Assembly (NCBI RefSeq): GCF_000420465.1
Contig: NZ_ATUZ01000016.1
Coordinates: forward strand, 186,001 to 250,000
Origin: Desulfovibrio desulfuricans DSM 642
Lineage (GTDB): Bacteria > Desulfobacterota > Desulfovibrionia > Desulfovibrionales > Desulfovibrionaceae
Direction of reading: 5' to 3'
DNA length: 64,000 bases
Shown: positions 11,828 through 29,811 of the stretch, piece by piece
Numbering within the stretch: position 1 is the stretch's first letter
Layout: every line of letters begins with the position of its first letter
Notes under the pieces: generated by a model
The model's input: only the letters and a program-made list of their open reading frames with translations
Database searches by the model: none
Told to the model about the DNA's origin: nothing
Made by a program: the position numbers and the translations under genes

Positions 11828-11828
11828 A

Positions 11829-12224
11829 ATGTCATTACGCATCCTTCTGGCTGACGATGAAAAGGAATTTGTCGATACCCTGGCAGAGCGTCTTTCGCTT
11901 CGCGGATTTGCGCCCTATGTGGTTTATGACGGCATCAGCGCCCTCCAGGCCGCCACGCCGGAAAAACCCGATGTTGTGGTGCTTGATCTTTTCATGCCCG
12001 GTCTGTCGGGCGATGAGGTGCTGCGCCGCCTCAAGGTTCTGTATCCTGATTTGCCGATCATCCTGTTGACCGGGCATGAGGCGGTGGACGACAACGGCAC
12101 AAACCCCGTGGCGCAGGCCTTTGCCTGCCTCACCAAGCCGCTGAGTTTCAATGTTTTTCTGGAAACGCTGCAAGCTGCCGTGCGTGAAGGCAAGGAATGC
12201 ACAGCCAACGGAGGCAAGTCATGA
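11829..12224 (+). CDS. Single-domain response regulator
   Basis: A 131-residue protein made of a receiver domain only: acidic pocket ILLADDEKEF, phospho-acceptor in VVVLDLFMPGLSG (D53), ILLTGH and the conserved lysine in ACLTKPLSF. With no output domain it must act by phospho-transfer or protein contact. The start overlaps the regulatory end of the preceding kinase gene (GGAGGTG lies in that gene's last codons), and its stop overlaps the ATG of the next gene by four bases (ATGA at 12221). This implies translational coupling across kinase, receiver and kinase-like protein. Confidence 0.93.
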   Translation: MSLRILLADDEKEFVDTLAERLSLRGFAPYVVYDGISALQAATPEKPDVVVLDLFMPGLSGDEVLRRLKVLYPDLPIILLTGHEAVDDNGTNPVAQAFACLTKPLSFNVFLETLQAAVREGKECTANGGKS

Positions 12225-12886
12225 ATGAAAGTCAGTGCATGGCCCGCTTGCTGGCTTCAGCCGTTCACGACATGCGCAACGTACTGGCCGTGATTCGTGA
12301 ATCTGCCGGGCTGGCGCAGGATCTGGCAACTCTGGCTGGCGGCAAGACTGTTGCCGCGCCGGGGGCAGAGCGGCTTTCATCGGCATTGAGTGAAGTGCAG
12401 CGTTCCATCATTCAGGGGGCGGCCCTTTCCGAAGCCATGGATTTCATGGCTCAGGCTGGGGGCATGGAGCTTGGCAGCGCTGGCCCCTGCGATCTTGCGC
12501 GGGTAAGCCGCAGTTTCTGCCTGCTGGCGGCGCGTCAGGCGCGCGCGGCGCAGATACAGCTGACCAGCGGCGAAACTGAAGAGCCCGTGTGGGCCAATGT
12601 GCCGCCTTTGGCAGTGCTGCGGTCACTGCTTGAAGTGTTTGACCTCTGCGCCTCGGTGGGCGGGCAGGTGAACCTGCGCCTCACCGCCGGACGGCGGCAG
12701 AAGGAAGAAGGCATCATTGTAGAGGCACTGGAAGGTGCCAACCGCGAAATGGCCCTGGCGGCCATGACGGGTAGTCCCATGCTTGACGGCATGCGCCCCG
12801 GTTGGCGCGCCGTGCTTATGCCCTGGCGAGACGCCGGGCCAAGATTTTTCCTTTCCATTTCGGCCTGCGATAGCGAAGGCGAATAA
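12221..12886 (+). CDS. Histidine-kinase-like protein lacking a recognisable ATPase domain
   Basis: A 221-residue protein whose N-terminus resembles a dimerisation/phospho-acceptor helix: SAVHDMRNVLAVIRESAGLAQD, with H16 followed by D and N-R-N in the H-box position. The remaining 170 residues show none of the N, G1, F or G2 boxes of a HATPase domain. The section where the N-box should be reads LAVLRSLLEVFDLCAS, and no DxGxG is found. Two readings are possible: a histidine phosphotransferase of the ChpT kind (H-box helix pair plus degenerate ATPase fold), or a decayed kinase kept as a scaffold. The frame is intact, and the start overlaps the preceding receiver gene. Its position between two single-domain receivers favours a relay role. 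Confidence 0.75.
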   Translation: MNESQCMARLLASAVHDMRNVLAVIRESAGLAQDLATLAGGKTVAAPGAERLSSALSEVQRSIIQGAALSEAMDFMAQAGGMELGSAGPCDLARVSRSFCLLAARQARAAQIQLTSGETEEPVWANVPPLAVLRSLLEVFDLCASVGGQVNLRLTAGRRQKEEGIIVEALEGANREMALAAMTGSPMLDGMRPGWRAVLMPWRDAGPRFFLSISACDSEGE

Positions 12887-12925
12887 CCGGCGCCGGCATG
12901 TTGCCGGGCCTTCAAGGAGTATTCC

Positions 12926-13399
12926 ATGACCAAGGAAGACATCAAAATCCTGCTGGTGGACGACGAAAAGCAGTTTGTGGACACGCTGTCGGAGCGCCTT
13001 GCCATGCGCGGCTTTGAAGCGCAGGTAGCCTATGACGGCCCCGAGGCCCTCAAGGCTGTGGAGCAGCCCACCGATGTTATCGTGCTTGACCTGCGCATGC
13101 CCGGCATGGACGGCTTTGAAGTGCTGCGCAACGTCAAAAAGAGCAATCCGCAGGTTCAGGTCATCATTCTTACGGGCCATGGCGGCGACGCTGAAGAACA
13201 GACCGCCTATCGCATGGGCGCGTACAACTTTCTCAGAAAGCCCATGGACATTGACGAATTGCTCAACAGCATTCGCATGGCCTACCGCGACAAGCTTGAG
13301 AACGCCATGGTGGCTGTTTCTCTGGCCGAAGGCGGGGACTTTGATTCGGCCCGCGATGTTATGAACGAAAAGGACGTGCTGGAAGAGCACGGTAAATAA
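12926..13399 (+). CDS. Single-domain response regulator with C-terminal tail
   Basis: A 157-residue protein: receiver domain with ILLVDDEKQF, the phospho-acceptor in VIVLDLRMPGMDG (D55), IILTGHGG and the conserved lysine in NFLRKPMDI, then a 30-residue tail (LAEGGDFDSARDVMNEKDVLEE) without a DNA-binding fold. The tail resembles those seen on stand-alone receivers of delta-proteobacterial relays. The ATG at 12926 follows AAGGAG. It is closely similar in sequence to the receiver at 11829-12224 (shared EK.FVDTL.ERL..RGF), which suggests duplication within the cluster. Confidence 0.92.
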   Translation: MTKEDIKILLVDDEKQFVDTLSERLAMRGFEAQVAYDGPEALKAVEQPTDVIVLDLRMPGMDGFEVLRNVKKSNPQVQVIILTGHGGDAEEQTAYRMGAYNFLRKPMDIDELLNSIRMAYRDKLENAMVAVSLAEGGDFDSARDVMNEKDVLEEHGK

Positions 13400-13426
13400 G
13401 CGCTGGTGCAGCTTTGGCCGGGGAGG

Positions 13427-13452
13427 GCCGGATGGAGCGCATCCGGCCTGCG
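13427..13452 (+). other. Intercistronic hairpin
   Basis: GGCCGGATG and CATCCGGCC-like arms separated by a short loop form a strong hairpin between the receiver gene and the receiver-kinase gene. No T-run follows, so it looks like an RNA-stability or partial-termination element rather than a full terminator. Confidence 0.4.
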
Positions 13453-13624
13453 GAAAGGGTGTTTCTGCACGAAATGCTCTTGCAGAAATTTGCCCTAACT
13501 CCCTGCCATAAAACAGGCGTTGGCTGGTCTTGCCCGCCGCAAGGCGGCTGGTTCAAGCGTTAATTGCCCCGGAGCGATTTCTTGAAAGTGCCCGGGCGGC
13601 AGCGGTTCGCCATAGGAGTTCGCC

Positions 13625-14839
13625 ATGCGTGTGCTTGTTGTGGATGACGAACCTGCCTTTTCGGAGCCTTTGGCCGAGCGTCTGGCATTGCGGGGCTACG
13701 AAACCGCAACCGCGCAGGATGCCGATGCGGCCCTGGCCGAACTGGCGCGCGGCCCCCGCGACCTCATATTTCTTGATGTGGGGCTGCCGGGTATGGACGG
13801 CGTGGACCTGCTGAAAATTCTGCGCGAGCACTACCCGCAGACCGATGTGGTGATGCTTTCCGGCGCAGGAGATATGGGCAAGGCTGTGCAGGCCATGCGG
13901 CGCGGCGCGCTGAACTGGCTGTCAAAGCCTGTGGGCATGGACGGCATCCTTGCGGAATGCCGCAAAGCGGCGGAACGCGCAGGCGCAAGGCAGGAAGCCG
14001 CCCGTCTGGCCGAGGCAGCCCGCTGGCGCAGCCTTGGCCGGGTAGCGGAAGGTGTGGCCCATGAGGTCAACAATCCGCTGAATATCATGGTGCAGGCCGC
14101 CGGCCTGATCCGTGACTGTCTGGAAGAGCCGGAAGCTGAAGCTTTGCCGGATATCGGCGAAGTACGCGAAGCTGTGGACACCATCAGGACGCAGAGCCTG
14201 CGGGTGCGCGAGATTACGCGCAAGCTGCTTATGGTCGGGCACGGGCTTGACCCCCGCGTTGGCGCGCTTGATGTGGCTGCGGATGTTGCCCAGGTGCTGC
14301 GCCTTCTGCACGAACGCATGGAAAGCGCCCATGTGCGCTGCGATGTACGCGTGCCCCAGGGCGAGGGCGCACCCCGCCCCTTGGGTTCCGCCCCGGAATT
14401 GCAGCAGATATGCCTGCATTTGCTGGAAAACGCGCTGGATGCTCTCAGTGATATTGAATCCGCATCAGGAGCGGCAGAGCGCCCCGGCGGTCTGATTACC
14501 CTGGCCGCCAGCACCAGACGCGATGCGCAGGGGCAGGACTGGTATGACCTTGTGGTGCGCGACAACGGCCCAGGCATCGCGTCCGACATCATGCCGCACA
14601 TATTTGAGCCTTTTTTCAGCACGCGCGCCCTGCAAAGCCCTGTTGCCGCGCATGCATCCGGCGGCAAGACGCTTGGCCGCTACGTGGGCTTGGGGCTTGC
14701 GGTGGCCCGTTCCCTGGCGCACGCCCGGGGCGGAGAGCTGACAGCAGCCAACGCGGCTGATGGCGGTGCAGAATTCTGCCTCAGCCTGCCTCTGGCGGAA
14801 TCTCTGGGGGAACGCCCAACGCCCAAGGTCGAAGCATAG
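13625..14839 (+). CDS. Receiver-histidine kinase hybrid, soluble
   Basis: A 404-residue cytoplasmic protein with the domains in reversed hybrid order. The receiver comes first (VLVVDDEPAF; D51 in LIFLDVGLPGMDG; NWLSKPVGM). The kinase follows, with H-box GVAHEVNNPLNIM (H146) and a HATPase domain with G1 VVRDNGPGI, F-box FEPFFSTR and G2 GLGLAVARSLAH. No membrane helix is present, so input presumably arrives by phosphorylation of the receiver or by protein contact. The ATG at 13625 follows ATAGGAG. It closes a seven-gene plus-strand cluster and is followed by a rho-independent terminator. Confidence 0.92.
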   Translation: MRVLVVDDEPAFSEPLAERLALRGYETATAQDADAALAELARGPRDLIFLDVGLPGMDGVDLLKILREHYPQTDVVMLSGAGDMGKAVQAMRRGALNWLSKPVGMDGILAECRKAAERAGARQEAARLAEAARWRSLGRVAEGVAHEVNNPLNIMVQAAGLIRDCLEEPEAEALPDIGEVREAVDTIRTQSLRVREITRKLLMVGHGLDPRVGALDVAADVAQVLRLLHERMESAHVRCDVRVPQGEGAPRPLGSAPELQQICLHLLENALDALSDIESASGAAERPGGLITLAASTRRDAQGQDWYDLVVRDNGPGIASDIMPHIFEPFFSTRALQSPVAAHASGGKTLGRYVGLGLAVARSLAHARGGELTAANAADGGAEFCLSLPLAESLGERPTPKVEA

Positions 14840-16833: not shown

Positions 16834-17589
16834 TTATTTTTGCAGCGAAGTCAGACCGTCAAGAATTGTCCACGGATTGGGAGGGCAGCCGGGAATGTAC
16901 AGATCCACGGGCAGCAGTTCGCTCACGCCTCGGTTGCACTGATCACTCTCGCGGAACAGCCCGCCGGAAATGGCGCAGGCCCCCACGGCAATAACAATGC
17001 GCGGCTGAGGAGTCGCCTTGAAGGTATCAAGCAGGGCCAGCCGCATGTTTTCCGAAACCGGGCCGGTTACGGCAATACCGTCAGCATGGCGGGGCGAGGC
17101 CACAAAATCAATGCCAAAGCGTCCAAGGTCAAACACCAGAGTGGTGAGCACGTTGCTGTCGGCCTCGCAGGCGTTGCAGCCTGCGGCGCTGACCTGCCGC
17201 AGCTTGAGCGAGCGGCGGAACAGGGAAAACCGGGGCGGCGTGGGCTGCTCTGCGAAAGGCTGACCGGGAGCCACCAGCAGGCCCTCGCGGGTAAAGGACG
17301 CCATGCGGTGCTGCCCGGTAAAGGTAAAGGCACCCTTGGGGCAGGCGGCACGGCATGCGCCGCAAAAGGTGCAGCGCCCCATGTCCAGCGTGGGGGTGCC
17401 GTCTTCCGCGCCAGCGGTGGGCAGCAATGCGCCAGCGGGGCAGGCCGCGTAGCAGGCGCGGCACGAGCCGCAGGAAACCTGCGCAAGCTCTGGCCTGCCC
17501 AGATACCTGGGCGAGAGCGTAGGCTGGCGATTGGGGTAATCCAGGGTGCGGTATTTCTGGTGCAGGCGTTCCTTGATAATACGCAGCAT
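16834..17589 (-). CDS. Ferredoxin-small subunit fusion of the hydrogenase-related complex (HyfH + HyfI-like)
   Basis: A 251-residue fusion. Residues about 38-90 hold two [4Fe-4S] motifs, CGSCRACYAACP and CTFCGACRAACP, equivalent to the polyferredoxin subunit (HyfH/HycF/NuoI). Residues about 130-251 resemble the small subunit (HyfI/HycG/NuoB), with AAGCNACEADSN, VGACAISGG and the PGCPP motif providing cysteines for the proximal cluster. In most group 4 hydrogenases and complex I these are separate proteins. The ATG at 17589 follows GAGG with 7-base spacing, 9 bp after the large subunit. It is the last gene of the minus-strand operon and would carry electrons to the membrane arm or the quinone/active-site region. 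Confidence 0.88.
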   Translation of the reverse strand: MLRIIKERLHQKYRTLDYPNRQPTLSPRYLGRPELAQVSCGSCRACYAACPAGALLPTAGAEDGTPTLDMGRCTFCGACRAACPKGAFTFTGQHRMASFTREGLLVAPGQPFAEQPTPPRFSLFRRSLKLRQVSAAGCNACEADSNVLTTLVFDLGRFGIDFVASPRHADGIAVTGPVSENMRLALLDTFKATPQPRIVIAVGACAISGGLFRESDQCNRGVSELLPVDLYIPGCPPNPWTILDGLTSLQK

Positions 17590-17598
17590 GTCAAAGCC

Positions 17599-19146
17599 TC
17601 ACAGATCGTGTCCGCAATACGAGAGATTGAAACTCTTGTTGCAGAGCGGGAAGTCGGAAATCTGGTTGCCGCGCAGGGCCATGGCAAGGCCGGACCAGTT
17701 GTGGAACGAAGGGTCAATGGCTTTGTAGGCCAAAAATTTTCCGTCAGGCCCTGTCACTGCCACATGGCAGATTTCGCCGCGCCAGCCCTCAACCTGCGAT
17801 ACGGCGAGGGTATCGGGCGGAAGGGACGCAAGGGCTTCGGCGTCTGGCTGTTCCGCACGGGGCGGCAGGTTGGCGAGAGTGGAAAGATCCGCCTCGAGCA
17901 GGCGCAGGGAATCGTCAATCTCCTTGCTGCGCACGAGGGTGCGGGCCAGAACGTCGCCCGTTGTTTCAACACGCGGCGCGCAGTCTCTGGTGGGCAGATC
18001 GGCAAGGGGAAAGTGGAAACGCGCGTCAACCTTGAGCCCGCAGGCCCGTGCGGCCATGCCCACCAGGCCGAGATTCTGGGCGCTTTCCCTGCTGACGTAG
18101 CCCGTACCCGTGAGGCGCTCAAGCACGCTCTCGGTATGCAACATCACATCCACAGCGCCGCGCACGTCTCGTCCTGCCGCCTTGATGCGCGCAAGCATGT
18201 CTGCGCAGCCGTCCGCGTCAAGATCGTAGGCCGTGCCGCCGGGGCGCAGCAGCCCCCGGCCAAACCGGTTGCCGCACAGGCAGGCCGTGGTGTTGAGAAA
18301 ATCACCGCGTATGCGGCCATTCCACGAGGCTGTGGGCAAAAAGCCCGTATCCCCGGCAATGGCCCCAAGGTCGCCCGTGTGGTTGGCAAGGCGCTCAAGT
18401 TCAAGGCCCACCCGCCGCAGACGGTGAGCGCGCGGGCCGACAACGCAGCCTGCAAGGCGTTCGACCAGTACGCAATGGGCCGTGGCATGGCCTATGGTTG
18501 TATCGCCTGCGGCGCACTCCAGCAGGGGCAGACAACGGGCAAGCGGGCCGCGCACAAGCATGCGCTCAAGCCCACGGTGTTGATAGCCCAAGGCAATCTC
18601 AAGGTTCAGCACATTTTCGCCGTGGCACTGAAAGCGGAAATGCCCCGGCTCAATAACCCCGGCATGTACGGGGCCAACGGCAACCTCATGAATTTCTTCG
18701 CCTTCAACTCTGTAGAAGGGATAGGGCTGGGCAGCCTGGCCAGGCGCTGCGGCAAGCGAGCCGCCTTCGGCCTGTGTTCTGGCATTGGCTTCGGCAGCGT
18801 CCGGGATGCGGCGCACAGGCTTGAGCCAGGGATGCCCCTCGGGCCGGATGCCCCATTGTTCAAATATTTCGCGTTCAAACAGATGTGTCTGAGGCGTGGC
18901 GGGCGTCATGGAAGCATAGGACTGCAAGGGGGCGGTGCGCATGGCGGCAAGATAGTGCGAACTGTCCTGAGCCAGCACGCAGCACAATCCCGCAGGGGCG
19001 TTTTCGTCCGAAGATTCCGGCAGGCCGAGCAGGGCCAGCAGACGCCAGCCTTCGGCAATGTAGCGGCGCACAAAAGCTCCCAGTTCTTCAACAGAAACAG
19101 GGGGCATGCCCGACAGCGGCACGGTATCGCGGTAATCGAATAGCAT
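17599..19146 (-). CDS. Hydrogenase-related large subunit without Ni ligands (HyfG/Ehr-like)
   Basis: A 515-residue fusion of a 30-kDa-like N-terminal domain (NuoC-like; HLFEREIFEQWGIRPEGHPWLKP at about 90-112) and a 49-kDa-like large subunit (NuoD/HycE-like; NVLNLEIALGYQHRGLE, GLELERLANHTGDLGAIAGDTGF). At the positions where [NiFe] enzymes carry the two CxxC motifs, this protein has ECAAGDTTIGHATA and DPSFHNW. Neither keeps a CxxC pair, so a Ni-Fe site is not expected. That is the hallmark of energy-converting hydrogenase-related (Ehr) complexes. The ATG at 19146 follows GAGAGGG closely; a GTG at 19158 is an alternative. It lies fifth in the operon. Confidence 0.88.
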   Translation of the reverse strand: MLFDYRDTVPLSGMPPVSVEELGAFVRRYIAEGWRLLALLGLPESSDENAPAGLCCVLAQDSSHYLAAMRTAPLQSYASMTPATPQTHLFEREIFEQWGIRPEGHPWLKPVRRIPDAAEANARTQAEGGSLAAAPGQAAQPYPFYRVEGEEIHEVAVGPVHAGVIEPGHFRFQCHGENVLNLEIALGYQHRGLERMLVRGPLARCLPLLECAAGDTTIGHATAHCVLVERLAGCVVGPRAHRLRRVGLELERLANHTGDLGAIAGDTGFLPTASWNGRIRGDFLNTTACLCGNRFGRGLLRPGGTAYDLDADGCADMLARIKAAGRDVRGAVDVMLHTESVLERLTGTGYVSRESAQNLGLVGMAARACGLKVDARFHFPLADLPTRDCAPRVETTGDVLARTLVRSKEIDDSLRLLEADLSTLANLPPRAEQPDAEALASLPPDTLAVSQVEGWRGEICHVAVTGPDGKFLAYKAIDPSFHNWSGLAMALRGNQISDFPLCNKSFNLSYCGHDL

Positions 19147-19205
19147 CGGCCCTCTCACCGTTGGCAGCGCAAAACCCGGCGGGTTTTGGCATCAGCCTTT
19201 GGCGT

Positions 19206-20702
19206 TTACGCGCCTATGAGCGCAGCGGCGCGGTTAAGAAAATTCCACAGCCAGTCGGGAATCCACAGGCCCAGAGTCAGCACGGTCAGCCCCAGCACCA
19301 AAGGCGGCAGGACGCTCAGCACAGGCTCGGAGTTTGCGGGCGGCAGATCCACAGGGCGGTTGCCCTGCACCATGCGCAGTACCGACACGGAAAGCCCCAC
19401 AAATATTATGGCTAGCAGCACCAGATATCCGGCGGAAAGCCAGGGCAGGTCTGCCGCCAGCATGCCCTTGAAGATGAGCAGCTCGCTGACAAAAAGCCCA
19501 AATGGCGGCGACCCGGCCACAGCCAGAAATCCGGCTGTCCACAGGGCCGCCGTGGCGGGCATGGTCCAGCGCATGCCGTGCACGTCGTAGCTGGAATAGG
19601 TGTGGTAGCGGGCAAGAATGTTGCCAGAAAGCAGAAAAAGCATGCACTTGGTGAGCGAATGGCAGACCGCATGCAGCATTGCGCCGGGCACAGCCACGCC
19701 GCCCACGCCTATGCCCAGAGCCAGAATGCCCATGTGCTCAACGCTGGAATAGGCCAGCATGCGCTTGTAGTGGCCTTGCCCCACAATAAAGATGGCGGCT
19801 GTCATGAGCGAAAGAATGCCGAAAAACATGAGCATGCCACCCGAAAGCCCGCCAAGCCCCGCAGCCAGCATGATCTGGTGCCCGCGCAGCATGCCCAGCA
19901 TGGCGCAGTTGAGCAGCGCGCCCGAAAGCAGGGCCGAAACCAGCGAAGGTGCCTGACTGTGCGCATCGGGCAGCCAGTTGTGCAGTGGGGCGAGGCCCAT
20001 CTTGGTACCGTAGCCCACCAGCAGAAAAACAAAGGCCGCCTTGAGCCATGTGGGTTCGGCAAGGGCCGCGTTACGCACAAACCAGCCCACCTGATCCATG
20101 CCGTCTGCTGCGCCAGTGGCGCCTTCCGCACCGTGGAACGACACGGAAAGCAATATGTTGCCCAGAAGAGCCAGGGCAATGCCCACGGAGCATATGATCA
20201 GGTACTTCCAGGTGGCTTCCAGCGAACTCTTGTGACGGTGAAAATAAATGAGCTGTGCGCTGGAAAGCGTGGTCGCCTCAATGCCCACCCACTGCGCGCC
20301 CATATGCGGCGTGATGGTCACAAGCGTCATGGCCCCGAGAAAAAAGCACAGGCAGGCTGTGAAGCGGCGCTCCGGCGCATTGGTGAAGCGCCCGTGATCC
20401 AGAATATTGGTGTGCTCGCCGATGCGTTCTTCTTCCCGCAGGTAATGTACGGCATAGAACGACGCGGCAAGAAACAGCAGACTCGCCAGCATCAGAAACA
20501 GCACGCCCAGAGCATCCGGGGCCAGCAGGCCGCCAAGTTCAGAGGGGGTTTCTCCGCGCGCGACCTTGACGGCAATTGCGGCGGCAAGGGCTGTGTGCGC
20601 CAGTGCCGTGAGCGGCAGGCCGAGGCGGCAGATGACGGCGCGGCCCCAGAGCAGCATGATGCAGCCTGCGCACAGGGGTATGAAAAGAAGTGCTGTCAGC
20701 AT
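19206..20702 (-). CDS. Antiporter-like membrane subunit (HyfF-like)
   Basis: A 498-residue integral membrane protein of the Mrp/NuoL-M-N proton-translocating family, with about 14 hydrophobic helices. Conserved features seen are WVGIEATTLSSA (the glutamate of helix 5), KMGLAPLHNWLPDAHSQAPS (the helix 7-8 lysine and broken helix) and AYSSVEHMGILALG (the helix 12 region). In the hydrogenase-4 and Ehr operons a HyfF-type subunit is a standard member. The start at 20702 has AGGACGAGC upstream. It sits between the HyfE-like gene (9 bp) and the large subunit (59 bp). Confidence 0.9.
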   Translation of the reverse strand: MLTALLFIPLCAGCIMLLWGRAVICRLGLPLTALAHTALAAAIAVKVARGETPSELGGLLAPDALGVLFLMLASLLFLAASFYAVHYLREEERIGEHTNILDHGRFTNAPERRFTACLCFFLGAMTLVTITPHMGAQWVGIEATTLSSAQLIYFHRHKSSLEATWKYLIICSVGIALALLGNILLSVSFHGAEGATGAADGMDQVGWFVRNAALAEPTWLKAAFVFLLVGYGTKMGLAPLHNWLPDAHSQAPSLVSALLSGALLNCAMLGMLRGHQIMLAAGLGGLSGGMLMFFGILSLMTAAIFIVGQGHYKRMLAYSSVEHMGILALGIGVGGVAVPGAMLHAVCHSLTKCMLFLLSGNILARYHTYSSYDVHGMRWTMPATAALWTAGFLAVAGSPPFGLFVSELLIFKGMLAADLPWLSAGYLVLLAIIFVGLSVSVLRMVQGNRPVDLPPANSEPVLSVLPPLVLGLTVLTLGLWIPDWLWNFLNRAAALIGA

Positions 20703-20711
20703 GCGCTCGTC

Positions 20712-21335
20712 CTAATCCCTGAGGCTGCGGAACCGCGCCACGTCAATGGAGGCGAAGGAATCGCTGATATGGTTGATGGCTATGCCCATAACAAACACGG
20801 CCACAAAAACGTCCAGCAGGAGGGCCAGTTCAAACCACACCGTGCCGCCTGTCATGAGCGGTGCGCCCAGCAGAAAGATGCCGTTTTCCGCCACCAGATA
20901 GCCGATGACCTGGGTGATGGCCTTGATGCGCCCCACAATGAGGATAAATCCGCAGAATAATGTTGCCAGCCCTGTGGGCAGCAGCAAAGGCGGATAAAGC
21001 CCCAGCGGCATGACCAGCTTGCCGTCCAGCCAGATGGAAAATACCAGACCGGCCATGCCTGCCAGTACGCCAAAACCCACGCGGCGGGCAGGGCAGATCA
21101 GGGCATCAGCGGGCAGCCGTTTTTGGGTGCGCCACAGCAAACCGGGCAGCAAGGCACCCTTGATCAGCAATACGGCCCCGGCCAGCAGAGCGTGGTCAAG
21201 GCTCAGCAGCAGGGCTGCCAGCAATACGCCCTGGAAGGCGGTCAGCCGCGTCATGCCCGCAACGCGGCGCGTCCCGAGCAGCAGAAAATTGCTCAATACC
21301 AGAAGGAAAAGACAGGACTGCAAAAGCGTGGTCAT
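20712..21335 (-). CDS. HyfE-like membrane subunit
   Basis: A 207-residue membrane protein with about six hydrophobic helices; LLGTRRVAGMTRLTAFQG near the N-terminus and GYLVAENGIFLLGAPL in the middle match the HyfE family (fused NuoK-like unit of hydrogenase 4). The ATG at 21335 has GAGG upstream and overlaps the stop of the preceding HyfC-like gene in an ATGA junction, so the two are translationally coupled. The frame extends further upstream but only through codons antisense to conserved HyfC sequence. Confidence 0.88.
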   Translation of the reverse strand: MTTLLQSCLFLLVLSNFLLLGTRRVAGMTRLTAFQGVLLAALLLSLDHALLAGAVLLIKGALLPGLLWRTQKRLPADALICPARRVGFGVLAGMAGLVFSIWLDGKLVMPLGLYPPLLLPTGLATLFCGFILIVGRIKAITQVIGYLVAENGIFLLGAPLMTGGTVWFELALLLDVFVAVFVMGIAINHISDSFASIDVARFRSLRD

Positions 21336-22279
21336 GGCAACCTCGCCTGGGTCAAAATAAGCGTGAGCATGCCCATGCCCGCTGCTGCGCCCAGCAGGTA
21401 CGGCACACGCTCCATGCGCAGACGGGCCATAATGGATTCCACAATGCCCACAACCACGGCCAGCAGCAGCACAATGCCAAGGCGTACGCCCAGTTGCTCC
21501 CACAGGGGCAGCGCAGGAGTGATCAGACCCGCTATCAGCGCGGCGAAAAACCACAGCTTGAGGGCCGCGCCGTAAAGTATCAGGGCCAGATTGGGGCCGG
21601 AATGGTCAAGCACCATGACCTCATGGATCATGGTCAGTTCAAGGTGCGTGTTGGGGTCGTCCACCGGGATGCGGCAGTTTTCCACCAGCAGCAGCACAAA
21701 AAAGATCACGGGCAGGAGCAGCAGTTCGCCCTTGCCTGTCAGCCATGCCCCGGCGGTCTGCCCGCCAAACATGGTGGAGAGGCTGAAGGCTGTTTCAGTA
21801 CCGTGCCCAAGGCCGAGGCACAGACTCGTGAGCACCATGAGCGCAAGAAAAAATACGGGTTCCGCGAGGGCGGAGAATGTGGCCTCGCGGCTTGCGCCCA
21901 TGCCTTCAAATGCCGAGCCTGTGTCCAGCGCGCCAAGCATGACGGCAAAGCGCCCCATGCCCAGCAGATAGGCTGCCAGCACAAAATCGCCCGCAAAGGC
22001 CAGAGGCGAAACCGCGCCGCCGAGGGGCAGCAGGGCCAGCGCGCAGATTGCGCCTGCCAGGGATATGGAGGGGGCGGCGGCAAATATCCATGTGGATGTG
22101 CGGCTGATCACCTCGCCCTTGCGCAGCAGCTTGGCGATATCATAGTAGGTTTGCAGCACAGGCTTGCCGTGGCGTCCGGCAAATTTGGCCTTGACCCGGT
22201 TGATGATGCCGGGCAGCAGGGGGGCCAGAATCAGGGACAGGGCAAACTGCGTAAGATAGACTGCAAGCCCGGCTTTCAT
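21332..22279 (-). CDS. HyfC/NuoH-like membrane subunit
   Basis: A 315-residue, eight-helix membrane subunit of the NuoH/HyfC/EchB family that links the hydrophilic arm to the ion-pumping subunits. Signature regions are GRHGKPVLQTYYDIAKLLRKGEV (cytoplasmic loop 1), the GMGASREATFSALAEP loop, and VENCRIPVDDPNTHLELTMIHE, which carries the conserved acidic residues. The ATG at 22279 overlaps the HyfB-like stop in an ATGA junction; the longer frame upstream is rejected for that reason. Confidence 0.9.
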   Translation of the reverse strand: MKAGLAVYLTQFALSLILAPLLPGIINRVKAKFAGRHGKPVLQTYYDIAKLLRKGEVISRTSTWIFAAAPSISLAGAICALALLPLGGAVSPLAFAGDFVLAAYLLGMGRFAVMLGALDTGSAFEGMGASREATFSALAEPVFFLALMVLTSLCLGLGHGTETAFSLSTMFGGQTAGAWLTGKGELLLLPVIFFVLLLVENCRIPVDDPNTHLELTMIHEVMVLDHSGPNLALILYGAALKLWFFAALIAGLITPALPLWEQLGVRLGIVLLLAVVVGIVESIMARLRMERVPYLLGAAAGMGMLTLILTQARLP

Positions 22280-24336
22280 GAGTGCAGCCCCCACACAAGC
22301 AGAGCCACCAGAGTGGCGAGAATGTACAAAATATACAGGTGGATTTTGCCGTGCTGGATAACTTTGCAGGCATTGCACAGGGTTTCCACCGCCGTAAACA
22401 GCGGCGTAAACAGGCCGCTGCGCAGGCGGTCGGGCGCAGTGACGCCCAGTTGGCCCCCCTTGGGGAACAATCCTTCATCCAGTTGCAGGCGTGTCTTGAG
22501 GCCCATGACCGGAGCAAAGATTTTTGCCGTGGGTTCGGAGAAAGCCGCGTCCGTATACTGGATGCGTGCAGATCCGCCCTGAAAGCCGCAACCCCATGTG
22601 GGCATGGATTCCACAGTGCGCTTTTTAAGCAGGCAGCGGCGAACAAAAAGGATAATCAGGGCCAGTCCAAGCCCGGCTCCGCCGATTTTTGCCACGGCTG
22701 CAAGGCTTGCATGCGCCTGCGCCAAGCCAGCCAGACCAGCTTGCTGAAATGCCGGGGGCAAGGGCAGGGCGCTTTGCGCCGCCCCTGCTGCCAGATCAAA
22801 AAAACAGGGGGCAGCCAGACCGCCCGCCAGACACACGGCGGCGGGCAGGGTAAGGGGCCAGAGTGTGCGCCAGGAAAGCGGATGCACGCTGGCGGCAAAG
22901 CCGGAACGCGGCTCGCCCAGAAAAGCGATGCCATAGGCCTTGGCGTACAGGGCTGCCGCAAGGCCGCTGATGCAGGCAAGACCCGCCAGAGCCAGCAGCA
23001 GGCCTACCTGACGCTCCACGCCAAAAAGCGCGGGGCCGTCCAGCAGGGAAAGCCCCATCACGAGTTCACCCGCAAATCCGTTAAAAGGCGGCAGGCAGGC
23101 AATGGCCGCTGCGCCTATGGCAAAGGCCGCGCCAAGCAGGGGCAGGCGTTTTTGCAGTCCGCCCAGATGCTGCATGCGCACGGTTCCTGTGGCGTGCAGC
23201 ACTTCGCCTGCGCACAGGAACAGCAGCCCTTTGAATGCAGAGTGGTTGAGCATGTGCAACAGTGCGCCGGAAAATCCCAGAACAGCAATCCACGCATTGC
23301 CGCAGCTCTGGCCAATGAGTCCTGCACCCAGCCCCATGACCATCAGGCCCATGTTTTCCACGCTGGAATAGGCGAGCAGCCTTTTGAGGTTGCTTTGGGC
23401 CGTGGCTTTTAAAATTCCCATGAGGCCGGTGGCAAGGCCCAGCAGAAGCAAAGTCCAGCCCCACCATTCGGGTGTCGCGCCCGCAGGGGCCAGCATGCCC
23501 ACGCTACGGATCATACCGTAAAATCCCGCATTGATCATGGCCCCGGAGAGCAGGGCCGAAACATGGCTTGGCGCGGCAGGGTGCGCTTCGGGCAGCCATA
23601 CATGCAGGGGCGCAAGCCCCGCTTTGGCTCCAAAACCGACCAGAGCCAGCACAAACAGCACCGTGAGCAGGCCGGGGCCGGAATAGCCTTGCGCCTGTTC
23701 AAGCACCCGCGCAAGCACAGCCCCGCCTTGGAGGGCGTCAAGCGAAGTGTCGCCCGTGACCTGCCACAGCAGGGTAAAGAAGGCCATCAGGGCCACTGCG
23801 CCCAGGTGGGCAGCCACAAGGTAAACCCAGGAGGCATCCCGCACCTTGCTGTCGCCGTCATTGAAATCAATAAGAAAGAAGGGCGCCAGCGACATGATTT
23901 CCCACGCCAGCATGAACAGCACGGCATCGCGTGCGGTCATCACAAGGGCAAGGCCGATCAGCAGCATATGAAAAAAGAACCAGTGCGCCGCAAGATTGTG
24001 GCGTTCCGGTTCTTCATGCCGCAAGGCAATGCCGCCCGAGGCGGCGCAGACAAAACCCAGACCAAACACTGGCAGCAAAAACAGGCGGCTCAGGGCGTCC
24101 ATGCCCAGGGCGCAGGATCCCACGGGCAAGGCCAGAGGCAGGCGCAGGCTCTCCTGCCCGGCCCACGGGCCGGAGGAAAGGGCGCACAAACCGACAAAAC
24201 AGCCCGCAAAGGCCCCGATAACGCCAGCCGCATTGGCCGCGCGTCCGGTTGCCTTTGAGGGCGGGCGCACGGCCAGCAGTGCGCACAGGGCGGCTGTTGC
24301 CGCCAATATGCCGATGGCCGTGATAAAAAGGAACAT
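22276..24336 (-). CDS. Antiporter-like membrane subunit (HyfB/NuoL-like)
   Basis: A 686-residue membrane protein with about 16 hydrophobic helices and the NuoL/HyfB blocks: LAWEIMSLAPFFLI (helix 5 glutamate), GFGAKAGLAPLHVWLPEAHPAAPSHVSALLSG, and LAYSSVENMGLMVMGLGAGLIG. A polar loop and extra helix at the C-terminus (from about 560) correspond to the lateral extension seen in long family members. The start at 24336 lies 14 bp after the UDP-glucuronate decarboxylase stop, so read-through from that gene is likely. It is the first of the six complex genes. Confidence 0.9.
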   Translation of the reverse strand: MFLFITAIGILAATAALCALLAVRPPSKATGRAANAAGVIGAFAGCFVGLCALSSGPWAGQESLRLPLALPVGSCALGMDALSRLFLLPVFGLGFVCAASGGIALRHEEPERHNLAAHWFFFHMLLIGLALVMTARDAVLFMLAWEIMSLAPFFLIDFNDGDSKVRDASWVYLVAAHLGAVALMAFFTLLWQVTGDTSLDALQGGAVLARVLEQAQGYSGPGLLTVLFVLALVGFGAKAGLAPLHVWLPEAHPAAPSHVSALLSGAMINAGFYGMIRSVGMLAPAGATPEWWGWTLLLLGLATGLMGILKATAQSNLKRLLAYSSVENMGLMVMGLGAGLIGQSCGNAWIAVLGFSGALLHMLNHSAFKGLLFLCAGEVLHATGTVRMQHLGGLQKRLPLLGAAFAIGAAAIACLPPFNGFAGELVMGLSLLDGPALFGVERQVGLLLALAGLACISGLAAALYAKAYGIAFLGEPRSGFAASVHPLSWRTLWPLTLPAAVCLAGGLAAPCFFDLAAGAAQSALPLPPAFQQAGLAGLAQAHASLAAVAKIGGAGLGLALIILFVRRCLLKKRTVESMPTWGCGFQGGSARIQYTDAAFSEPTAKIFAPVMGLKTRLQLDEGLFPKGGQLGVTAPDRLRSGLFTPLFTAVETLCNACKVIQHGKIHLYILYILATLVALLVWGLHS

Positions 24337-24350
24337 GACTGCCGGAATAC

Positions 24351-25307
24351 CTACGCCAGGCCGTCTTTCAGCTGCTTTTCAAAGTAGGCGATGGTTTTAA
24401 CCAGGCCTTCTTCAAGAGCTACCTTGGGTTCCCAGCCAAGCTTTTCGCGGGCCAGGGTGATGTCGGGCTTGCGCTGCTTGGGGTCATCGCAGGGCAGGGG
24501 TTCGTAAGAAATCACCGACTTGCTGCCGGTCATTTCCACGACCTTTTCGGCCAGTTCGCGGATGGTGAACTCGCCGGGGTTGCCCATGTTCATGGGGCCC
24601 ACAAAATCATCGGGCGAGGCCATGAAGCGGATCATGCACTCCACAAGGTCGTCCACATAGCAGAAGGAGCGGGTCTGGGAGCCATCGCCGTAAATGGTGA
24701 TGGATTCGCCCTTGAGCGCCTGAATGATGAAGTTGGAGACCACGCGCCCATCGTTGGGGTGCATCTTGGGCCCGTAGGTATTGAAGATGCGTCCCACCTT
24801 GATGGGCAGGTTGCCTTGCCGCCAGTAGGCAAAGAACAGGGCTTCGGCGCAGCGCTTGCCTTCATCGTAGCAGGAGCGGATGCCGTTGGGGTTCACATGG
24901 CCCCAGTAGCTTTCCTGCTGCGGATGTACCTCGGGGTCGCCGTACACTTCGCTGGTGGATGCCTGATAAATGCGCGCGCCAAGCCTCTTGGCCAGGCCCA
25001 GCATATTGATGGCGCCGTGGACGCAGGTCTTGATGGTCTGCACCGGGTCGTGCTGATAATGGATGGGCGAGGCCGGGCAGGCCAGATTGTAAATTTCATC
25101 CACCTCTACATAGAGGGGAAATGTCACGTCGTGGCGGATAAGCTCAAACCTGCGGTTATCCATGAGCGCTTCCACGTTGGCGCGTGCGCTGGAAAAGAAA
25201 TTGTCCACGCAGAGCACTTCGTGCCCTTCGTTGAGCAGGCGTTCGCACAGTTGCGAACCCAAAAAGCCGGAACCGCCGGTGACAAGAATGCGTTTGCGGA
25301 GATGCAT
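24351..25307 (-). CDS. UDP-glucuronate decarboxylase (UDP-xylose synthase)
   Basis: Extended short-chain dehydrogenase that converts UDP-glucuronate to UDP-xylose in the cytoplasm, supplying a cell-surface sugar. The 318-residue product has the NAD-binding [10 protein letters not shown] at the N-terminus, [12 protein letters not shown], the catalytic STSEVYG with YxxxK (Y147, K151) and the substrate-binding [20 protein letters not shown]. These are typical of UXS rather than of dTDP-glucose dehydratase. The ATG at 25307 follows GGGGGAA; the frame continues upstream without support. It is divergent from tatD and directly precedes the complex-I-like operon with a 14-bp gap, an odd pairing of functions. 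Confidence 0.9.
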
Positions 25308-26565: not shown

Positions 26566-27648
26566 ATGTCGGATCTGCGTACCCCCCTCACTGCCTGGCA
26601 CGAGGCGCATGGCGCAAAAATGGCCCCCTTTGCCGGGTGGCTTATGCCCATCCAGTATGAGGGTATTATTGTCGAGCATCAGCACACCCGCCAGCATGCA
26701 GGTCTTTTTGACATCTGCCACATGGGCGAATTTCTTATTGAAGGCCCCGGCGCGGACGAAGCCCTGAGCAAGGCCGTGAGCCACAACCTCCAGACCCTTG
26801 CCCCCGGCAAGTGCCGATACGGCTTTTTGCTCAACGAAAAGGGCGGCGTGCTGGACGATGGCATCATCTACCGCTTCGGCCCTGATTCCTTCATGGCCGT
26901 GGTCAACGCCGCCTGCGCCGCCAACGACTTCGCCGTGCTGCGCGCCCGCCTGCCCCAAAGCGTCAAGATGACCGATATTTCCGCAGAAACCGGCAAGATC
27001 GACCTCCAGGGGCCGGAATCTCTGGACGTGCTCGAAAAGCTGCTGGGCCAGAATTTTCATGACCTCGGGTACTTTTGCTTTCGTGAAACCACATGGCAGG
27101 GTTCGCCCCTGCTGGTGAGCCGCACCGGCTACACCGGCGAACTGGGCTACGAGCTGTATATCGCCGCCTCTGAAGCCGAGGCTTTCTGGAACGCCCTGCT
27201 GGCTGACGAACGCGTCAAGCCCATAGGCCTTGGCGCGCGCGATACCCTGCGCCTTGAGGCTGGCCTGCCCCTGTACGGACATGATCTGGATGAGAATCAC
27301 AGCCCCGCAGAAGCCGGTATGGGGCGTATGATGACCAGCACCGCCGACTATGTGGGCCGCGAAGGCGCGCAGAACATTGCCGAAGTGCTGGTGCCTCTGC
27401 GTATTGACGGCCGCCGTGCCGCCCGCCACGGTGATGTGGTCGCCCTTGCTGACGGCACGGAAGTGGGCCACGTGACCAGCGGTTCGTTTGCGCCCTCGCT
27501 GGGTTATGTGATCGCCTTTGCCTGGGTCAAGGCCGCGCATGCCGGGGCCGAAAATTTTGTGGTTCGCGCCGCCAGAACGGAGCTGCCCGCCACGCGGGTT
27601 GAAGCGCCGTTCTACACCGAAGGCACCGCGCGTAAAAAACTGGCCTGA
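26566..27648 (+). CDS. gcvT: Glycine cleavage system T protein (aminomethyltransferase)
   Basis: Transfers the methylene group from aminomethyl-lipoyl GcvH to tetrahydrofolate and releases ammonia. The 360-residue product has the folate-binding blocks FAGWLMPIQY, GLFDICHMGEF, KCRYGFLLNEKGGVLDD, LQGPESLDVL, RTGYTGELGYELY and the C-terminal GHVTSGSFAPSLG, all expected for GcvT. The ATG at 26566 follows AAGGAG. It begins a plus-strand series gcvT-gcvH-gcvPA-gcvPB. The 250 bp upstream show no glycine riboswitch core that I can recognise. The L protein is not in the window. Confidence 0.95.
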   Translation: MSDLRTPLTAWHEAHGAKMAPFAGWLMPIQYEGIIVEHQHTRQHAGLFDICHMGEFLIEGPGADEALSKAVSHNLQTLAPGKCRYGFLLNEKGGVLDDGIIYRFGPDSFMAVVNAACAANDFAVLRARLPQSVKMTDISAETGKIDLQGPESLDVLEKLLGQNFHDLGYFCFRETTWQGSPLLVSRTGYTGELGYELYIAASEAEAFWNALLADERVKPIGLGARDTLRLEAGLPLYGHDLDENHSPAEAGMGRMMTSTADYVGREGAQNIAEVLVPLRIDGRRAARHGDVVALADGTEVGHVTSGSFAPSLGYVIAFAWVKAAHAGAENFVVRAARTELPATRVEAPFYTEGTARKKLA

Positions 27649-27745
27649 TACGGTCATTGATCTGTGCGGGCCGCATCCCACGGCACCTCACGCAGAACAG
27701 CGTAATTTTTATAACGATTGAACCCAATTTTTCAGGAGTTTGCAC

Positions 27746-28132
27746 ATGGCTACCAATCCCGCCGATATTCTGTACAGCACCAGCCACGAATGGACCCGCA
27801 TTGAAGGGGACGAGGCCGTCATCGGCATCACCAGCTTTGCCCAGGAATCCCTTGGTGATATCACCTACGTGGAACTGCCCCCCGTGGGCGACCAGCTTTC
27901 TGAAGACAAGGAATTCGGCTCTGTGGAATCGGTCAAGGCCGCCAGCGACCTGATTTCTCCCGTTTCGGGCGAAGTGATAGCCGTGAACGAAGCTCTGGAA
28001 AACACCCCCGAGCTTTGCAACAGCGACCCCTTTGGCGAGGGCTGGATTGTGCGCGTCAAGCTGGCCCACAAACCCGGCGGTCTGCTGGACGCGGCGGCTT
28101 ACGAGGCTCATTGCGCCACCGAAAAGCATTAA
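27746..28132 (+). CDS. gcvH: Glycine cleavage system H protein (lipoyl carrier)
   Basis: A 128-residue lipoyl-domain carrier that shuttles the aminomethyl group between GcvP, GcvT and the L protein. The lipoylated lysine is K64 in [12 protein letters not shown], embedded in the usual context [13 protein letters not shown] and [14 protein letters not shown]. The ATG at 27746 has GGAG upstream; an in-frame ATG two codons earlier is less well placed. It lies 97 bp after gcvT. The 347-bp gap to gcvPA is unusual for a gcv operon and contains a structured hairpin. Confidence 0.95.
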
Positions 28133-28147
28133 TCCGTCATGCGTGTT

Positions 28148-28248
28148 TTTTCGGTTCCGGCTGCGTCAGACAATTTTTTTATTCCGGTCGAGTACCTAAG
28201 AGTACACTCCCTGCATAAAAAAATCGTCTTCCTTGCCGGAACCGAAAA
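28148..28248 (-). ncRNA. Covarying hairpin of the repeat family, copy 3 (in the gcvH-gcvPA gap)
   Basis: A 101-nt hairpin. The outer arms TTTTCGGTTCCGGC (28148-28161) and GCCGGAACCGAAAA (28235-28248) pair perfectly over 14 bp. The inner arms (28168-28182 and 28215-28229) pair over 15 bp with one A-C mismatch, which is a G-U pair on the minus strand. The internal loops are TGCGTC on one side and TCCTT on the other, and the apical part contains GTAC repeats. On the minus strand CAAGGA and TGACGCA occupy the same internal-loop positions as in the copies at 7447-7535 and 32012-32100. There is no T-run on either side, so it is not an ordinary terminator. Confidence 0.6.
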
Positions 28249-28479
28249 TCCACGGCATGCCGTTTGACGTGGGTAGCGCAGTTTAACCAAGTTACCCATG
28301 TATGATTTTGGGCTGCCTGCGCGCTGGCAAACTTTTGCACCGAGTGTGTAACAGCCTGAAATTTTTCCTTTCGCACCGGCTGGAGCAGCGTCGTACAACG
28401 GCGGGTTCCAGCCGGAGTCCCTTTCACAGCGGCTGCCGTCGCACAAGCGGTACAACGTGTCCGGCGGCAAGGAGCTAGT
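28249..28479 (+). other. Leader region upstream of gcvPA
   Basis: About 230 bp with no credible gene. It contains an interrupted inverted repeat around CACCGGCTGGAGC...GTTCCAGCCGG (about 28374-28411), which could form a stem, and ends with AAGGAG ahead of gcvPA. No known riboswitch core was recognised. Confidence 0.35.
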
Positions 28480-29811
28480 ATGCCATACATTCCCCATACG
28501 CCGGAAGAGTTGCATGAAATGCTCTCCGTAGTTGGCGTGCGCAGTCTGGATGAGCTTTTTTCCGACATCCCGTCCAGCATGCGCCCCCAGAGCTTTGATC
28601 TGCCCAAGGGGCAGAGCGAGGCCGCCGTCTGCAGACACTTTGAAGAGCTGGCAGCCAAAAACTGCCCCGGTCATGTGTCCTTTCTCGGCGCAGGCTTTTA
28701 TAACCACGACATCCCCAAGGCTGTGGACGCGCTTTCTGGCCGCAGCGAATTTTACACCGCCTACACGCCCTATCAGGCAGAATGCTCACAGGGCACCTTG
28801 CAGGCCATTTTTGAGTTCCAGACCGCCGTCAGCCGTCTGCTGGAAATGGATTGCGGCAATGCCTCCGTGTATGACGGCGGCACCGCCATTTTTGAAGCCG
28901 CCATGATGGCTGTGCGCTCCACGCGCCGCCGCGTGCTGGTGGTGGACGAAGCCGTCAACCCCATCTGGCGCTCCATGCTGGAGGCCTATGTTTCGAGCCT
29001 TGATCTGGAAATCAAGACCGTACCCCAGCAGAATGGTTGCAGCGATATGGACGCCCTCATGGCTGCCACCGACACTACATGCGCTGCCGTCATTGTGCAG
29101 AATCCCAACTTCTTCGGCGCAGTGGCGGACTACACGGCCCTGTTTGCCAAGGCCCGTTCCAACAAGGCCTTTGGCGTCATCTCCGTGTATCCGGTCATGC
29201 AGTCCGTTCTTAAAACCCCTGGCGAAATGGGGGCTGACGTGGCCGTGGCCGAAGGCCAGAGCCTTGGCATGAACCTCTCGTTCGGCGGCCCCTACCTCGG
29301 GCTCATGGCCTGCCGCAAGGAACACATCCGCCAGTTCCCCGGCCGCATTGTGGGCCGCACCACCGATGTGGACGGCAAAACCGGCTACGTGCTGACCCTG
29401 CAAGCCCGCGAGCAGCACATCCGCCGCGCCAAGGCCACATCCAACATTTGCTCCAATCAGGCTCTCTGCGCCCTGCGCTCGCTCATCCACATGAGCCTGC
29501 TTGGCCCGCAGGGCCTCACCCGCGTGGCCGAAAACAACATGGCTCTTGCCCGCTACGCTGTGGAGCGCCTCACCGCCCTCAAGGGTGTGGAACTGCTCAA
29601 CAGCGCCCCCTACGGCTCGGAAGTGGCCCTGCGCCTGCCCATGCCCGCTGCTGAAGTGGTCAAGGCCATGACGCAGAAGGGTGTCGTGCCCGGCTATCCG
29701 CTGGGCCATCATTATCCCGGCATGGAAAACGTGCTGCTGCTCTCGTGCACCGAGGCCAACAACCGCACCCAGATAGACAAGCTGGCCGAAATCATGGGAG
29801 GTCTGCTGTGA
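28480..29811 (+). CDS. gcvPA: Glycine dehydrogenase (decarboxylating) subunit 1
   Basis: The N-terminal half of the P protein in its split, two-subunit form; with GcvPB it decarboxylates glycine using PLP. The 443-residue protein has SFLGAGFYNHDIPKAVD, TAYTPYQAECSQGTLQA, GNASVYDGGTAIFEA, NPNFFGAVAD and NICSNQALCALR, all diagnostic of gcvPA. The subunit itself lacks the PLP lysine, as expected. The ATG at 28480 follows AAGGAG. Its stop overlaps the GTG start of gcvPB (GTGA), giving translational coupling for a 1:1 complex. Confidence 0.95.
   Translation: MPYIPHTPEELHEMLSVVGVRSLDELFSDIPSSMRPQSFDLPKGQSEAAVCRHFEELAAKNCPGHVSFLGAGFYNHDIPKAVDALSGRSEFYTAYTPYQAECSQGTLQAIFEFQTAVSRLLEMDCGNASVYDGGTAIFEAAMMAVRSTRRRVLVVDEAVNPIWRSMLEAYVSSLDLEIKTVPQQNGCSDMDALMAATDTTCAAVIVQNPNFFGAVADYTALFAKARSNKAFGVISVYPVMQSVLKTPGEMGADVAVAEGQSLGMNLSFGGPYLGLMACRKEHIRQFPGRIVGRTTDVDGKTGYVLTLQAREQHIRRAKATSNICSNQALCALRSLIHMSLLGPQGLTRVAENNMALARYAVERLTALKGVELLNSAPYGSEVALRLPMPAAEVVKAMTQKGVVPGYPLGHHYPGMENVLLLSCTEANNRTQIDKLAEIMGGLL

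Follow-up and report, generated by a model that had tools for sequence, protein, structure and literature searches.

What can a complex-I-like assembly do when its large subunit carries none of the cysteines that bind nickel in hydrogenases? This question is raised by an operon of six genes in Desulfovibrio desulfuricans DSM 642, analysed here within a window of 64,000 nucleotides (contig NZ_ATUZ01000016.1, positions 186,001 to 250,000 of the forward strand; all coordinates below are those of the window). Judged from its sequence, the operon belongs to the known Ehr family, and is neither a hydrogenase nor a new kind of system. The old metal site of its large subunit, EhrL, seems to have given way to a different, conserved pocket, and the evidence for such rebuilding is new here. 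Our preferred reading, which we regard as rather probable, is that Ehr is a ferredoxin-fed, redox-driven ion pump reducing some acceptor at this pocket.

The original prediction of six coupled Hyf-like genes was borne out. They lie on the minus strand, tightly coupled over 24336-16834, with intergenic gaps of -4, -4, 9, 59 and 9 nucleotides in the order from EhrB to EhrS, and have the following family matches:

22276..24336, minus strand: EhrB, HyfB/NuoL-like antiporter-type membrane subunit of 686 amino acids (NCBIfam HyfB 5e-149; Pfam Proton_antipo_M 2.5e-51)
21332..22279, minus strand: EhrC, HyfC/NuoH-like membrane anchor, with an ATGA overlap with EhrB (Pfam NADHdh 1.9e-29)
20712..21335, minus strand: EhrE, HyfE-like membrane subunit of 207 amino acids (NCBIfam hydrogenase 4 membrane subunit 6e-12)
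19206..20702, minus strand: EhrF, HyfF/NuoM/N-like antiporter-type subunit (NCBIfam HyfF 2e-102)
17599..19146, minus strand: EhrL, HyfG-like, with a NuoC-like N-terminus and a NuoD/hydrogenase large-subunit domain, 515 amino acids (PF00346 3.6e-30; PF00329 6e-5)
16834..17589, minus strand: EhrS, HyfH/I-like, with a ferredoxin domain and a NuoB/HyfI-like domain in one gene (PF01058 2.4e-25 and Fer4 families)

Five of the six proteins have Pfam matches of 1e-25 to 1e-51, which puts homology far above chance; EhrE is without a Pfam match and is recognised by its NCBIfam family only. The subunit previously described as HyfI/H-like is, according to Pfam, a single gene fusing ferredoxin and NuoB domains. 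EhrL is itself a NuoC-NuoD fusion, as is E. coli HycE, its best PDB match both by sequence and by fold. Scanning the operon for promoters and terminators gave a signal little above that of shuffled sequence.

The former nickel site and the family of EhrL

EhrL was aligned with E. coli HycE and HyfG, Pyrococcus MbhL, the true hydrogenases of the host itself and Thermus Nqo4. Residues are counted from the ATG at 19146, which is most likely the start because an in-frame stop lies upstream of the same ATG in a relative (G087). The sites discussed below, all placed by alignment, are:

18649..18651, minus strand: E166, the equivalent of the proton-relay glutamate E21 of MbhL
18499..18510, minus strand: A213-G-D-T216, replacing the first CxxC
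17602..17640, minus strand: N503-L515 (NKSFNLSYCGHDL), replacing the DPCxSCTER region, with S509 and G512 at nickel-cysteine positions

The four nickel-ligand cysteines of MbhL and HycE (C1-C4) correspond to A213, T216, S509 and G512, so that none is kept, as the original prediction had claimed; neither the RxCGxC nor the DPCxxC ligands of group 4 NiFe hydrogenases are found in EhrL, no alternative alignment with Ehr and group 4 hydrogenases supplies such a cysteine, and the ligands are missing in all 50 Cys-less rows of the alignment. The second site had been misassigned: the motif DPSFHNW, earlier taken for the place of the second CxxC, was rejected, as its partners in the alignment are HycE RAATYANW and MbhL REPTFPN, some 30 residues further upstream. 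The true counterpart is the C-terminal SFNLSYCGHDL, in which NLSYCGHDL matches DPCxSCTER at the very C-terminus of EhrL; the one cysteine in NKSFNLSYCGHDL is not at a ligand position. Since all ligands are lost, hydrogen turnover at a NiFe site, previously called unlikely, is excluded. HypD was not detected in 17 of 47 other Ehr hosts, which are mostly draft genomes, many of them metagenome bins with completeness unreported, so that single gene absences mean little.

A maximum-likelihood tree of 60 large subunits, a set that does not extend to G. sulfurreducens GSU0739-45 or to the EhrL of Desulfotomaculum ruminis, reported to have four cysteines (PMC3569383), placed the window in clade A (support 99/97) together with the Ehr of Geobacter argillaceus and Geomonas. 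Clades A-D, all without nickel cysteines, form one branch (100/99) containing no Cys-bearing row, and its sister is E. coli HycE/HyfG (100/96). Rooted on NuoD, Ehr arises as this sister from within a Cys-bearing group 4 grade; long branches are involved in some of the joins. One loss of the nickel cysteines would thus suffice for the sampled rows. The operon encodes a large subunit related to group 4 without either CxxC site, together with antiporter-like and NuoH-like subunits. Tree, operon composition and motifs all uphold the earlier assignment to the Ehr group, outside any true hydrogenase clade.

Ehr was found in 8 of 9 sampled genomes of the genus of the window and in 47 of 149 of the family. 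The Desulfovibrionaceae sequences do not all group together within clade A but branch at two or more points, suggesting horizontal transfer. We found no description of Ehr in Desulfovibrio among open-licence literature. In the sample of the phylum, 71 of 297 genomes gave a match at E <= 1e-35, some of these matches being distant Cys-bearing hydrogenases, and at least 583 Ehr candidates from many bacterial phyla were confirmed in one scan. Two peptide patterns retrieved 80 named loci, a set unfit alone for conservation claims on those peptides; further loci were retrieved by whole-protein similarity.

A separate observation concerns HyfG/HycE-type hydrogenase large subunits in other Desulfobacterota, namely L077 (G325:C26), L076 (G157:C1) and G196:C202, in which an in-frame TGA stands for N-terminal nickel-ligand cysteines, either the first alone (ERIUGIC) or both (ERIUGIU), with DPCFSCTER intact. 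SelA is present in G157 and G325. Selenocysteine, possibly double, is probable in these group 4 hydrogenases of L077, L076 and G196:C202, as read from their genes.

Selection, electron path and membrane arm

All six genes are without internal stops, and the ratio of nonsynonymous to synonymous substitution rates (dN/dS), calculated against three genomes of the same genus, is 0.016-0.11 across them, near the values of neighbouring control genes. An in-frame TAA in the large subunit of G087 and terminal stops in HyfC of G102 and G040 were only apparent and were discarded, their positions being outside the genes. The best-conserved part of EhrL is the former metal-site peptide: mean conservation over clades A-C is 0.91 at 495-515 and 0.63 in the rest of the domain (p ~1e-6). 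About one third of the rows behind these values came from the scan in which part of this peptide was one of the two patterns; the rows retrieved by whole-protein similarity show the same conservation. The operon order is intact in many phyla. By these sequence comparisons Ehr is not a relic and is under strong purifying selection, at least in this lineage. The dN/dS values and the conserved peptide therefore contradict, for this lineage at least, the assertion that Geobacter Ehr is non-functional and drifting (PMC13194489).

The E21 residue of MbhL is key for proton reduction in the membrane-bound hydrogenase MBH and is absent from the related complex MBS (PMC7684303); its equivalent E166 is invariant in every Ehr row and is a glycine in the NuoD rows. 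In EhrS all 12 of 12 iron-sulphur cysteines are kept in the alignment: the ferredoxin domain has two 4Fe-4S sites (C40-C83), and the proximal cluster has the four cysteines C138xxC141, C205 and C235, with the CxxC spacing of hydrogenases. The Nqo4 residues H38 and Y87 are replaced in EhrL by I165 and G214, unchanged across clades A-C. Proton delivery and electron relay thus look hydrogenase-like, while the reaction centre would be neither a NiFe site nor a known quinone site. AlphaFold gives EhrL the HycE fold with a mean pLDDT of 83, and the best PDB match is 7z0s_E (TM-score 0.80).

In the membrane arm the glutamate of transmembrane helix 5, the lysine of helix 7 and the glutamate of helix 12 are kept in both antiporter-type subunits (E146, K238 and E424 in EhrB; E142, K234 and E407 in EhrF), both have N where NuoM has K265, and EhrC keeps the three channel acids E140, D207 and E214. 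Ion translocation by this arm is plausible.

Donor, acceptor and competing explanations

Among 50 genes adjoining the operon in many phyla there is no recurrent redox partner, and on this ground we rejected the idea that the operon encodes one, be it a formate dehydrogenase, a flavoprotein or another protein. The complex therefore looks self-contained, and the simplest idea is that a soluble donor feeds it at the fused ferredoxin domain. In the host, probably a sulfate reducer, POR_N-family proteins are encoded at four loci, of which three are strong, and there are futalosine-pathway genes for menaquinone. The 3.4-Mb genome of the host holds five loci of the complex I superfamily (two Nuo, one Ech-like, one Hyf/Coo-like, and Ehr); both group 4 hydrogenases, the Ech-like and the Hyf/Coo-like, carry their cysteine ligands.

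As a pump, Ehr would take electrons from reduced ferredoxin or another low-potential donor at the ferredoxin domain of EhrS, and pass them through the two 4Fe-4S clusters and the fully Cys-ligated proximal 4Fe-4S cluster to the pocket of EhrL. This pocket, once NiFe, would now be lined by the conserved polar set GDT/S and NKSFNxSYxGxDL, where the conserved glutamate may still feed or remove protons. Reduction of the acceptor there would drive H+ (or Na+) through the HyfC/E/F/B arm, and in reverse the complex may yield reduced ferredoxin. The sequences themselves show the cluster ligands, most of the channel residues, the lost nickel ligands, purifying selection and conservation of the putative rebuilt pocket; ferredoxin as the donor, the nature of the acceptor, the direction and the ion are what we infer. 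The proton- or sodium-pumping role linked to ferredoxin that the original prediction put forward would be consistent with the iron-sulphur and ion-channel residues that are kept.

Several points weigh against this reading. AlphaFold confidence is low at 159-167 and 505-515, exactly the two site loops, and the pocket geometry is therefore outside the reach of the model. Clade C has a small subunit without the ferredoxin domain (about 170-190 amino acids; operons L063-L072), and another subclade has lost cluster ligands; electron entry through this domain is therefore not universal and must be different in clade C. NuoH E216 and E218 are N and H in EhrC, and NuoK E36 and E72 have no counterpart in EhrE, so that coupling could be altered. 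Finally, we found no biochemistry of any Ehr complex in open-licence literature.

The strongest competitor, although an unlikely one, is a ferredoxin:menaquinone oxidoreductase like the 11-subunit complex I, reducing quinone in the former NiFe pocket. Fold and chamber are those of complex I by homology, the host has the futalosine pathway, and MqnA/D or MenD is present in 28 of the 47 other Ehr hosts. Against it stand the invariant I165 and G214 at the positions of H38 and Y87, the two Nuo loci that the host already has (NuoEFG was not found beside either), and the 19 hosts of the 47, mostly draft genomes, with neither MqnA/D nor MenD above the cut-off, including 3/3 Elusimicrobia and 3/3 spirochaetes. 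This survey agrees with the report of no quinone pathway in Ehr-bearing Riflemargulisbacteria (PMC6349859). UbiA-type transferases, a broad family, occur in 44 of the 47. This analysis makes quinone less likely as the acceptor of Ehr, and it is probably not a universal one.

Two further proposals appear improbable, and to the same degree. One, put forward for Margulisbacteria (PMC6349859), joins formate dehydrogenase and Ehr in a formate-oxidising ion pump. Geobacter proteomics contain a hint of it (PMC7894505), G. sulfurreducens having more of the Ehr subunits on formate, and Ehr-bearing Saganbacteria have fdhA and nuoEF-like regions, but formate dehydrogenase does not recur among the 50 operon-adjacent genes or the conserved flanking clusters, and the operon is without a HyfA/HycB-like linker. 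The other is a sulfane or polysulfide reductase like Pyrococcus MBS, a solved complex I relative in which NiFe catalysis and quinone residues are likewise lost; a host that probably reduces sulfate would suit it. MBS catalysis, however, needs a shortened proximal-cluster loop with one iron lacking a cysteine ligand, whereas the Ehr site has four cysteines, and the E21 equivalent lost in MBS is kept in Ehr.

Less probable again is that Ehr serves as an ion antiporter or sensor, either redox-gated or free of redox chemistry, with a regulatory, non-catalytic peripheral arm; the lack of a known acceptor site and the regulator gene often adjacent in other genomes (see below) would agree with it, but if no electrons were transferred, it would be difficult to account for a complete iron-sulphur chain that ends at a pocket still served by a proton path. 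A non-functional hydrogenase relic evolving under relaxed selection, the view taken of Geobacter Ehr in PMC13194489, has in its favour that the one known catalytic site is lost, and is very improbable given the control-like dN/dS, open frames, conserved former-site peptide and operon order, and for this lineage we reject it on dN/dS.

Neighbouring genes and known systems

In other bacteria the Ehr operon is frequently accompanied by a gene joining a helix-turn-helix (HTH) domain to a phosphotransferase system (PTS) EIIA domain, which is new here. This fusion of HTH_17 and PTS_EIIA_2 is present at 61 of 108 Ehr loci, on the operon strand at 57 and directly beside the first gene at 44, in Planctomycetota, Verrucomicrobiota, Myxococcota, Spirochaetota, Acidobacteriota and others, clades B and C included, and the phospho-histidine of EIIA is kept in 46 of 49 aligned copies. 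None was detectable in the genome of the window, and we found no published link between Ehr and PTS in the part of the open-licence literature that was covered. L185, L188 and related Verrucomicrobiota loci have two such genes in or beside one Ehr operon, some with an altered context of the phospho-site. Directly downstream of Ehr at Desulfuromonadia-like loci (L095, L097, L147, L156) lies a glyceraldehyde-3-phosphate dehydrogenase of the PRK08289 type. Together these two neighbours hint at control by phosphoenolpyruvate (PEP) or glycolytic status. Flanking cluster 0 was dropped, as it looks like antisense shadow open reading frames of core genes, and the remaining flanking clusters are mostly shadow frames or unrelated genes.

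As a tentative extension, Ehr may be a distinct catalytic class in the complex I superfamily, neither hydrogenase nor quinone nor sulfane reductase, whose rebuilt, highly conserved site would serve an unrecognised substrate; in many phyla it would be linked to PEP or sugar status through the adjacent HTH-PTS-EIIA regulator. Recent papers call Ehr function-unknown or non-functional; residues, hosts and a regulatory hypothesis are now at hand for finding its reaction, and knowing it would help to explain how other complex-I-like pumps arose from hydrogenases.

Upstream of EhrB, at a distance of 14 nucleotides, lies one more gene:

24351..25307, minus strand: NAD-dependent epimerase/decarboxylase (Pfam)

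It adjoins the Ehr operon in several genomes of the same genus and of Desulfovibrio and is likely on the same transcript, but it is outside the Ehr complex. Elsewhere in the window, the plus strand has a two-component signalling run at 11808-14839, whose last gene (13625-14839) is a fusion of response regulator and histidine kinase, and at 26566-31256 a putative glycine cleavage operon (gcvT, gcvH and two gcvP), assigned by eye from translated open reading frames.

Among known systems, Geobacter Ehr (EhrA-L-S) is alike in its missing nickel ligands, its Hyf-type membrane arm and an electron input consisting only of ferredoxin and NuoB parts. Unlike other Ehr, that of the window falls in a Desulfovibrio subclade; its HyfB is present once, upstream of C, and it is without the HTH-EIIA gene common elsewhere. 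Formate hydrogenlyase and hydrogenase-4 (E. coli Hyc and Hyf; HycE 7z0s) are the nearest Cys-bearing sisters and share the Hyf subunit set B, C, E, F, G, H and I, whereas Ehr is without nickel cysteines, HyfA, HyfD and the C-terminal extension and has H and I fused. With respiratory complex I or 11-subunit Nuo it shares homologues of NuoH, NuoL/M/N, NuoCD, NuoB and NuoI and the key antiporter Lys/Glu residues, but not the quinone residues H38/Y87, NuoA/J or NuoEFG, and its proximal cluster has CxxC where complex I has adjacent CC. The MBS of Pyrococcus furiosus (PMC7684303), too, is a complex I relative without NiFe catalysis or quinone residues; it keeps two residual cysteines in the large subunit, has no E21 equivalent and binds its proximal cluster with three cysteines, and on each of these points Ehr is the opposite.

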